DNA of 64,000 bases, taken from assembly GCA_946183145.1 (NCBI GenBank), contig CAMGZM010000001.1, forward strand, positions 186,001 through 250,000, given 5' to 3'. Shown one piece after another: positions 4,859 through 8,543 of the stretch. A program made the translations under genes and the position numbers. Position 1 is the stretch's first letter, and each line of letters begins with the position of its first letter. Below the pieces are notes generated by a model. It ran no database searches. It had not been told where the DNA came from and worked only from the letters and a program-made list of their open reading frames with translations. This DNA is from an uncultured Fretibacterium sp. (lineage in GTDB: Bacteria; Synergistota; Synergistia; Synergistales; Aminobacteriaceae).

Positions 4859-6475
4859 ATGATATTCAAGCTGTTCGGAAAAAAGAAAGAAAGCGTACCT
4901 TCAGAATCATCACAGGAAATGAAAGAGGAGGCAAAAATATCAATGTCAGGCAAGAAATATGTAGCAGCGATTGATCAGGGGACGACAAGCACTCGCTGTA
5001 TGCTTTTCACGAAAGACGGAAAGCCCGCCGGATCGTATCAGATGGAGCATGAACAGATTTTCCCTCATCCCGGCTGGGTAGAACATAACGCGATGGAGAT
5101 TTGGAGCAGGACTCAGGACGTTATACGCGGCGCGCTAAATGCCGTAAACGCTTCCCCCGATGAAATCGCCGCCGTAGGAATCACGAACCAGCGCGAGACT
5201 ACAGTAGTATGGGAGAAATCGACAGGCAAGCCGATATACAACGCTATTGTGTGGCAGTGCACAAGGACTCAGGACTTCTGCGCGGAATGGCTCAAGAAAC
5301 CCGGCTGGGGTCAGAATGAAAAAGGAGAAGGCAAAGTCAAGGACATAACCGGCCTGTTAATCAATCCATATTTCTCCGGGACAAAAATCCGCTGGATTCT
5401 CGATAACGTACCCGGAGCGCGTGAGAAAGCAGAGAAGGGAGAATTGCTTTTCGGCAACACAGACACGTGGCTAATCTGGAATCTTACGGGCGGAGTAAAT
5501 GGCGGTGTTCATGTTACTGACGTATCAAACGCCTCGCGTACCCTTCTGATGAACATTGAGACATGCGAATGGGACAAAACGATGATGGACGAGCTGAAAG
5601 TTCCCGCGTCAATGCTCCCTAAGATTATGCCGTCAAGCTCGGTTTACGGTTACACGACAGAGTCCGGGCCTTTCGGGGCAAAAATTCCTGTCGCGGGCGA
5701 TTTGGGAGATCAGCAGGCGGCGTTGTTCGGCCAGGCATGTTTGAGCGAGGGAGAAGCAAAGAACACTTACGGAACAGGCTGCTTCATGCTCATGAACATT
5801 GGCGACAAACCGATTCCATCAAAGAATGGACTCCTCACAACAGCGTTCTATTCACGCGAGAAAGGGAAATGCTATTACGCTCTCGAAGGCTCAATAGCGA
5901 TTGCAGGAGCGGCGATTCAGTGGTTACGGGATAACTTGAAGATGGTTGATGACGCGCCTGTAACGGAATATTACGCGGGAAAAGTGAAAGACTCCGCCGG
6001 AATATATTTCGTCCCTGCGTTTTCGGGACTCTTTGCGCCTTATTGGGACATGACCGCAAGAGGGGCGATTGTCGGACTGACTCGCTACGTCCGCAAAGAA
6101 CACATAATCCGTGCGACACTTGAGAGTCTCTGCTATCAGACTCGTGATGTCATTGAAGCGATGGAGAAAGACTCCGGCAAAAAGCTCACAGCCCTGAAGG
6201 TTGACGGCGGCGCGGTCGTGAATAATCTTCTCATGCAGTTGCAGGCGGATATTCTCGGAGCTGATGTTGTGCGTCCTGTCGTGAACGAGACAACAGCATT
6301 AGGCGCGGCATATGCTGCGGGACTCGCCGTAGGTTTCTGGAAAGATGAAGGCGACATCCGTGCGAACTGGGCGCAGGATCACAAGTTTACGCCTGAGCTT
6401 GAAGCCTCCGAACGTGAGAAAGCCTATGCAGGATGGCAGAAAGCTATCGAGAAGTCAAGAGCGTGGACGGACTAA
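4859..6475 (+). CDS. glpK: Glycerol kinase
   Basis: 538 aa, FGGY kinase family, makes sn-glycerol 3-phosphate from glycerol and ATP. Seen: [14 protein letters not shown] (phosphate-binding start), [64 protein letters not shown] spread over the ATP site, and [17 protein letters not shown] near the C-terminus. The family usually starts at the equivalent of Met29 (4943), which has its own GAGGAGG site; the ATG at 4859 also has AGGAG, so a 28-residue Lys/Glu-rich extension is possible. Co-transcribed with glpF. Confidence 0.95.
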
Positions 6476-6493
6476 GAATCAGTGAAAAGGTTA

Positions 6494-6532
6494 AAGGGGT
6501 TAGGGGTAAAAGATACTCCAGCCCCTTTTTTT
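6494..6532 (+). terminator. Rho-independent terminator after glpK
   Basis: Stem AAGGGGTT (6494-6501) pairs with AGCCCCTT (6520-6527) with one G-T pair, followed by a run of T to 6532. Confidence 0.75.
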
Positions 6533-6537
6533 GTGGG

Positions 6538-6876
6538 TTACCATACCCAATCAATGAATTTGCTTATTGCGTATACGCTTGCACCTATTTCGGTTACTAC
6601 GATTGTAGTTCCTGCTGCAACTGCGACTGCTGGGGCTGCTACGCTTCCTGTTGCTGCTGTTACTGCTGCCCCGCCCACAGAGGCCAGACCACCCGCCGAA
6701 TTTACAGCTGTTGCTATCAAGCCTATTGTGATTGCGCTGGCTTTGTACTTGACGTTGTTTTTTGCGTAATCGTATTGCTGTATGGTTGTGTTGTCGGTGA
6801 AAGAAAATGCTGTGCTGAGGCTTCCGAATGTGAACGCGATAACTAACAATACTGCGACAAATTTTGAATGCTTCAT
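6538..6876 (-). CDS. Small exported Gly/Ala-rich hydrophobic protein, unknown function
   Basis: 112 aa. A signal peptide (HSKFVAVLLVIAFTFG, cleavage near STAFS) is followed by a short polar stretch and then a long Ala/Gly/Val-rich hydrophobic region (residues about 47-100) ending in FIDWVW. The strong ribosome site GAAGG, 8 nt before the ATG, and the consensus promoter hexamers upstream support this strand over the overlapping Cys-rich frame on the plus strand. Composition recalls small membrane-active peptides or holin-like proteins, but I recognise no family. It lies between two halves of the glycerol locus in reverse orientation. Confidence 0.6.
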   Translation of the reverse strand: MKHSKFVAVLLVIAFTFGSLSTAFSFTDNTTIQQYDYAKNNVKYKASAITIGLIATAVNSAGGLASVGGAAVTAATGSVAAPAVAVAAGTTIVVTEIGASVYAISKFIDWVW

Positions 6877-6919
6877 GAATAAGACACCTTCTTAGAATTG
6901 GGATTGATACGTAAAATTG

Positions 6920-6952
6920 ATTATAAAAAAAAAAAAAGTGCGGAATTGTCAA
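6920..6952 (-). promoter_or_regulatory. Consensus -35/-10 pair separated by a poly-A tract
   Basis: Read on the minus strand, TTGACA (6952-6947) and TATAAT (6925-6920) are both perfect, but the spacer is 21 nt instead of 17 and contains most of an uninterrupted run of 13 T (plus-strand A 6925-6937). The predicted start lies about 37 nt before the small exported protein's ATG. Tract-length change would alter spacing. Confidence 0.55.
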
Positions 6953-7073
6953 CAATAAACTTCACGAAATTTTTTGTATTGCTAACACACTGCGTATACC
7001 GTAAAATTTTAAAATCCATTCAGTTTATTTTGTCTATTTATCACCTAAAAATTTTTCATGAGGGGGAATACTT

Positions 7074-8543
7074 TTGTATGACATTGTGATAATCGGCGCA
7101 GGCATAACAGGCTCATCAATAGCACGCGAGCTGTCAAAATATCACGTGAAAATCGCGGTGATCGACAAAGCGTCAGAACTTCCAGCAGGAGCTTCACGCG
7201 CAAACAGCTCAATGATACACGGAGGATTTGACGACAAGCCCGGAACAGTAAAAGCAAAATTCTGCGTTCCCGGAAATAAGTTGTGGCACAAGCTCAAAGA
7301 TATTCTTGACGTTCATCTTGATGAATGCGGGTCTTACGTCTGCGCTTTCAATGATGACGAGACAAAGCACCTTGAAGAATTATTGCAGCAGGGAAAAGCT
7401 AACGGCTCTGCGGGAGTCGAAATAATTTCCGGCGATGCTCTGCGCGAAAAAGAACCAAACGTTTCACCCGAAATTGTTGCGGCTTTGTGGTCTCCTGAAG
7501 CGGGAATCATCAATAACTTTGAGGCCGTCAACGCAATGATAGAGAGCGCAAGAATCAACGGGGCTGATTTGTTCCTTGAGACCGTTGCAACAGGATTGCT
7601 CATTGATGATGCCGGGAACGTTCGAGGAGTGTCAACAAACAAGGGCGACTTCACCGCAAAAATTGTGATTAACGCGGGCGGAGTCCATTCGGGCGAGATT
7701 GCTTCATGGGCTGGCGATAACTCATTCAAAATCATTCCGACAAAGGGAGAATATTTTTTGCTTGACCGCGCGACAAAAGGATTCATTCACAGCTTTCTTT
7801 TCTCCTGCCCGTCAAAAGCCGGAAAAGGCATAACAGTTTTGCAGACAGCAGAAGGAAATCTCATGTCCGGCCCAACAGCTACAGAGCAGAAAGATCCCGA
7901 AGACAGGTCAACGACTCCCGAAGGACTCGCAGAAGTGCTGAAAGGCGCAAAAAGACTCGTGCCTAATTTCCCCGTCAACATGAACATTACGACATTTGCA
8001 GGAGTCCGGGCTAATACAGAGTCAGGAGATTTCGAGATTTCAGCGTTGAAGAGTCCCCGCGGATTCGTGAACGTCGCCGGGATTAAGTCCCCCGGATTCA
8101 CATCAGCACCCGCAATAGCAGAGTACACAGCCGACTTGCTGAAAGAAGAATTTTCCGACATCGTAACATTCTCGCCTAACGAAAAATTTATCCCCGAACG
8201 CTGCAACATTCCCCGCTTCCTGTATATGGACATGGCCGGGCGCAAGGCATTGGCGGAAAAAGACTCGTCTTACGCACAAATAGTTTGCCGCTGTGAGACA
8301 GTAACAGAAGGCCAGGTGCTGGAGGCAATACACAGAGGAGCGCGCACAGTCTCAGCCGTAAAAATGATGACCCGCGCAGGAACTGGACGCTGTCAGGGAG
8401 GATTCTGCTGTCCTAGAGTCGCCGAAATATTATCGCGTGAGTTAGGGATTCCTCTTGACGAAATCACGAGGCACGGAGGCGAGTCAAAATTGCTCATCGG
8501 AAAAACAAAAGAATTTCTGCTGAAAGGGGCTGTGTCTGAATGA
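7074..8543 (+). CDS. GlpA-like FAD oxidoreductase with C-terminal [2Fe-2S] domain
   Basis: 489 aa from a TTG start (7074) with GAGGGGG 7-8 nt upstream. The N-terminus is an FAD dinucleotide fold (DIVIIGAGITGSSIARELS), then a DAO-type glycerol-3-phosphate dehydrogenase body (SRANSSMIHGGFD, NAGGVHSGEIA, GVRANTESGDFEI). Residues about 400-460 form a BFD-like Fe-S domain with CRCETV and GRCQGGFCCPRV. In the family this oxidises glycerol 3-phosphate to dihydroxyacetone phosphate under anaerobic conditions. It overlaps the next gene by ATGA, in the GlpA-like/flavoprotein/DUF1667 arrangement. Substrate is inferred from that context and nearby glpFK. Confidence 0.88.
   Translation: MYDIVIIGAGITGSSIARELSKYHVKIAVIDKASELPAGASRANSSMIHGGFDDKPGTVKAKFCVPGNKLWHKLKDILDVHLDECGSYVCAFNDDETKHLEELLQQGKANGSAGVEIISGDALREKEPNVSPEIVAALWSPEAGIINNFEAVNAMIESARINGADLFLETVATGLLIDDAGNVRGVSTNKGDFTAKIVINAGGVHSGEIASWAGDNSFKIIPTKGEYFLLDRATKGFIHSFLFSCPSKAGKGITVLQTAEGNLMSGPTATEQKDPEDRSTTPEGLAEVLKGAKRLVPNFPVNMNITTFAGVRANTESGDFEISALKSPRGFVNVAGIKSPGFTSAPAIAEYTADLLKEEFSDIVTFSPNEKFIPERCNIPRFLYMDMAGRKALAEKDSSYAQIVCRCETVTEGQVLEAIHRGARTVSAVKMMTRAGTGRCQGGFCCPRVAEILSRELGIPLDEITRHGGESKLLIGKTKEFLLKGAVSE

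Follow-up and report, generated by a model that had tools for sequence, protein, structure and literature searches.

Known promoters with homopolymeric spacers

The best-known cases of phase variation through homopolymer slippage come from pathogens and mycoplasmas. In Neisseria meningitidis porA, a poly-G tract separates the -35 and -10 elements, and the gain or loss of a single base alters transcription (PMC3899988). In Mycoplasma hyorhinis, each vlp gene has a poly-A tract in its promoter, and insertions and deletions there switch transcription ON or OFF (PMC10502178). Helicobacter canadensis possesses promoter-located and 5'-intragenic tracts throughout its genome, among them a promoter tract, (A)12, that ranges from 10 to 14 in sequencing reads (PMC2823697).

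The promoter described here lies on the minus strand of a 64,000-nucleotide stretch of DNA from an uncultured Fretibacterium sp. (the window). As in the porA and vlp systems, a homopolymer sits between a recognizable -35 and a recognizable -10, and the same holds in two other species. We give a probability of about 0.65 to the reading that this is a sigma-70-type promoter of a 112-residue hydrophobic protein with a predicted export signal, and that its T run is a slippage-prone spacer making expression variable in phase or strength.

The locus shares with porA a homopolymer within the promoter spacer, porA being a membrane-protein gene. The base, the phylum and the product are different, and the effect was measured in porA whereas here we infer it. 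The spacers are also longer, 19-21 nt, those of porA promoters being 16-18 nt. The vlp promoters are the closest known system in base and position. However, the vlp genes form one surface-lipoprotein family, whereas the T-run promoter precedes a single small, putatively exported protein, and its sister poly-C promoters, unlike those of vlp, drive unrelated genes. For H. canadensis, length ranges were shown at the level of reads, whereas the change reported here is between species only; on the other hand, the promoter here has an explicit -35/-10 frame with perfect hexamers. This kind of switch is already known, but it is apparently unreported in Synergistota within the literature searched: no open-access paper in that search combines "phase variation" with "Synergistota", and the Synergistetes papers found there apparently deal with other subjects. 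If the reading is correct, the genus-wide set described below would extend slippage phase variation to commensals of a little-studied phylum, the gut and rumen Synergistaceae, and would offer a clean natural series relating promoter strength to spacer length.

Architecture of the promoter and its gene

Read on the minus strand, positions 6952-6920 are TTGACA-ATTCCGCAC-T12-TATAAT (Table 1). The two perfect hexamers 21 nt apart, announced by the original prediction, are exact on re-reading, and its 13-nt homopolymer corresponds to the T run when the first T of TATAAT is counted. The stretch directly downstream of the -10, CAATTTTACGTA, likely holds the transcription start. A ribosome-site-like stretch occupies part of the 43 nt between the -10 and the ATG. 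That the T run might act as a terminator was considered and rejected, with no terminator-like site in 6400-7200 and the upstream gene being divergent.

Table 1. Features of the T-run promoter and its surroundings, in window coordinates.
Feature	Position	Strand	Basis or comparison
-35 hexamer TTGACA, perfect	6947..6952	-	invariant in 3/3 species
Non-repetitive linker ATTCCGCAC, joining the -35 to the T run	6938..6946	-	diverged among species; 5/9 identical to G028
T13 run, final T being base 1 of the -10	6925..6937	-	11 T in G028, 12 T in G034
-10 hexamer TATAAT, perfect	6920..6925	-	invariant in 3/3 species
CAATTTTACGTA, directly downstream of -10, conserved	6908..6919	-	species comparison
Ribosome-binding-site-like AAGAAGGTG	6885..6893	-	read from sequence
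Small hydrophobic protein, 112 aa, signal-peptide-like N-terminus, C-terminal FIDWVW	6538..6876	-	ORF; ATG at 6876
glpK-like gene, FGGY kinase, flanking the 112-aa ORF	4859-6475	+	
Divergent FAD oxidoreductase gene, DAO and BFD domains, other flank of the 112-aa ORF	7074-8543	+	

The product had been foreseen as a small exported hydrophobic protein. Its 112 residues begin with a hydrophobic segment resembling a signal peptide (maximum 15-residue hydropathy of 2.57), so size and hydrophobicity agree with that description while export stays a prediction. No credible family was returned for this protein by Pfam, NCBIfam or PHROGs. An AlphaFold model built from a three-row alignment, mostly helical with a mean pLDDT of 43.9, was too poor for use. 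Besides the flanking genes of Table 1, a glycerol-channel-like gene is found near the locus.

Conservation and chance expectation

Among the 43 genomes of the genus, the gene is found with strong scores in three: that of the window, G028 (74% identical protein) and G034 (44%). Even when weak scores at E 0.01 are included it is rare, reaching 6/43, and this rarity counts against a switch. The three species have in common TTGACAA, a T run, TATAAT and then AATTTTACG. The T runs measure 13, 11 and 12 and the spacers 21, 19 and 19 nt in the window's genome, G028 and G034, respectively, a comparison between species with one genome for each. The hexamers are thus unchanged while the run changes in length and the linker diverges, and the consensus promoter proposed at the outset is borne out as a real architecture. 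The protein also has a more distant relative (G000:C4:51712, G000 being the genome of the window), upstream of which there is no such tract.

Chance would hardly produce this arrangement. A perfect TTGACA-N15..23-TATAAT occurs once in the window (0.15 expected from shuffles), and so does T13 (0.05 expected). The whole assembly (2,548,109 bp) contains 22 perfect hexamer pairs with spacers of 15-23 nt. Spacers of 21 nt occur in just two of them, each with a long homopolymer: the T13 of the window and a C11 at G000:C1:120359-120391. In the genome-wide list of T/A runs of at least 10, which has 19 overlapping matches for 12 distinct runs, T13 is also the longest. A chance pairing of hexamers and T run is very unlikely because it is conserved in two other species, and within this sequence comparison conservation is the decisive point.

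A genus-wide set of homopolymer-spacer promoters

The same build recurs in the genus. The pattern TTGACA..C8+..TATAAT is found at 15 places in 10/43 genomes and TTGACA..T8+..TATAAT at seven places in 7/43, while the reversed patterns, used as controls in the same 43 genomes, return none for either base. Across the order (180 genomes), all 10 positives for the poly-C pattern lie inside the genus, with none in the 137 Synergistales genomes outside it. Three of the seven T8+ cases are the T-run promoter of the 112-aa gene in the species already named; those in G007 and G019 form one homologous pair with a 16-nt spacer, the one in G064 (17 nt) precedes a stretch that looks tRNA-like by eye, and the one in G003 has 13 nt. 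A looser search, for TTGACA followed by C8 within 6 nt and with no -10 required, yields 32 distinct tracts in 16/43 genomes. The homopolymer thus recurs across species as C, as T and once as G. Among the products of the genes behind these promoters are a GTPase and a family-2 glycosyltransferase, along with several proteins whose N-termini look signal-like and small hydrophobic proteins rich in Gly/Ala.

Two groups of related copies were observed. In G033, three promoters (L132, L135 and L138) ahead of different genes share TTGACAGATAC(8-10)..TATAATT[GA]CTGAAAAGTCAA, a likeness suggestive of a copied promoter cassette. A homologous poly-C promoter is present in three species (L001, L131 and L137 in G000, G065 and G030, with C11, C11 and C10, respectively) upstream of small proteins and, in two of the three, of Gly/Ala-rich hydrophobic proteins.

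Since the T-run promoter is conserved and promoters built alike are numerous in the genus, slippage-driven variation of phase or strength is the best explanation; the promoter is real, functional-looking and probably variable in phase or strength, and its genus-wide setting, centred on 20 nt, is unusual. Replication slippage would add or remove one or a few bases of the T run, the distance between -35 and -10 would change and with it the promoter strength, and cells of one clone would come to hold differing amounts of the 112-aa protein, a variation of which the organism may make some biological use. A sigma-70 promoter with a 21-nt spacer should be nearly silent. At the length assembled in the window the promoter would probably be off or very weak; at the 19 nt of the two sister species it would be weak to moderate, and shorter spacers would be stronger. 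It belongs to a set of homopolymer-spacer promoters specific to the genus. Most of the set are poly-C, and their spacing is near 20 nt, which may be the upper end of what a promoter can use and where a gain or loss of one base should matter most.

Spacer length and its possible meaning

Distances to the -10 were compared in 33 promoters, the 32 tracts of the looser search and one further perfect-hexamer poly-C case. A -10-like hexamer lies at 19-21 nt in 26/33 by best score, or in 28/33 with the second-best -10 used for two rows. In six genomes, ordinary perfect promoters (n=128) have spacers peaking at 18 (58/128) and 16 nt (29/128), with 19 nt or more in 15/128. The homopolymer promoters therefore centre on 20 nt, about two bases longer than ordinary ones. 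The original prediction had also supposed that a loss of about four bases would restore an optimal 17 nt. This part is not supported, the orthologues being at 19 nt and the poly-C class centred on 20 nt, and 17 nt as the working state of the class is rejected with 28/33 at 19-21 nt. Either 20 nt is the distance at which the class works, or its spacing is kept at the long end, where it is sensitive to change; because one or the other would hold, the loss of four bases is an unneeded assumption.

Tract and flank lengths compensate for each other (r -0.68), and 0/20000 shuffles are as tight in total spacing; when two ambiguous rows are dropped along with four related copies, r is -0.64 and 5/20000 shuffles are as tight. 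The spread in total spacing is smaller than it would be if tract and flank varied independently, and length is therefore constrained. Such a constraint is needless for a freely drifting switch. The assembled lengths also cluster at 19-21 nt with no mixture of short and long, which likewise speaks against a switch.

These observations would suit a homopolymer with a fixed, structural role, whose tract is stiff or unusually twisted and serves as the spacer of a promoter tuned to ~20 nt, the differences between species being tolerated drift. Some interrupted tracts (C6TC3 and C5AC3), which also place the hexamers 19-20 nt apart, point the same way. Such a promoter might perhaps be activator-assisted, like the long-spacer promoters of the MerR type. 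The latter carry a dyad-symmetric regulator site in a spacer of 19-20 nt; no such site is seen by eye in the 21-nt spacer here, made up of nine mixed bases and T12. However, uninterrupted runs of 8-15 are an unstable means of fixing a distance, yet they recur across species in three bases. The compensation vanishes with uncorrected best-score -10s (r -0.28), and the spacing of the T-run promoter itself varies between species. We regard a fixed spacer as unlikely. The geometry of poly-C or poly-T seems too small an effect to account for a spacing of 20 nt, judging from their helical repeats.

The T run could instead serve another purpose, bending the DNA or offering a regulator an A/T-rich site to recognize, with the promoter constitutive at its given length. 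The run does adjoin the -10 directly and is kept in 3/3 species, but the related promoters use poly-C, which lacks the A/T-rich shape, and this alternative appears quite improbable.

Returning to the slippage-variable promoter, a broader proposal can be made with some reserve, at rather less than even odds: one rumen Synergistaceae genus may have evolved its own promoter class, in which the hexamers match the consensus perfectly and homopolymers (mostly C8-C15, here T13) keep them 20 +/- 1 nt apart. Because the class would sit where tolerance of spacing falls off steeply, a slip of one base would dial promoter strength up or down at scattered genes that are unrelated to one another.

Poly-C tracts in the genome of the window

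The genome of the window contains 27 poly-C runs of 9-15. Five of them have incomplete flanks; a flank-shuffle test covered the remaining 22 and the poly-T (10+) tracts other than the T13 locus itself. Three of the 22 poly-C (9+) tracts with full flanks score as promoters beyond their shuffled flanks (P <=0.05), and the idea that all these tracts are promoters is rejected. None of the 11 other poly-T (10+) tracts does so. That so few tracts pass, of either base, argues against a switch.

Five of the 50 contig ends fall at or within ~25 nt of a poly-C run. Breaks at such runs are expected from length mixtures but also from sequencing trouble, and suggest either. Although long homopolymers are error-prone, as these contig ends also recall, an assembly error hiding a shorter spacer and an ordinary promoter is very improbable, for two other assemblies carry the T run, 11 and 12 long, at the same place.

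Several poly-C tracts are close to the start of an ORF that is read from the G strand, and these could be translational switches. Among the poly-C tracts of this genome, poly-G on the opposite strand (e.g., L075:2837-2848, L085:2496-2505 and L089:2-13), the motif AAGTAATT follows 4 nt after the run in 3/27; within one mismatch it is found at 6/27 tracts, against 0.0057 per random site, for a motif picked after seeing the data. Lastly, a C10 run, near which there is a TAGAAT, precedes a gene encoding an LRAT-domain protein (L083:2990-3454).
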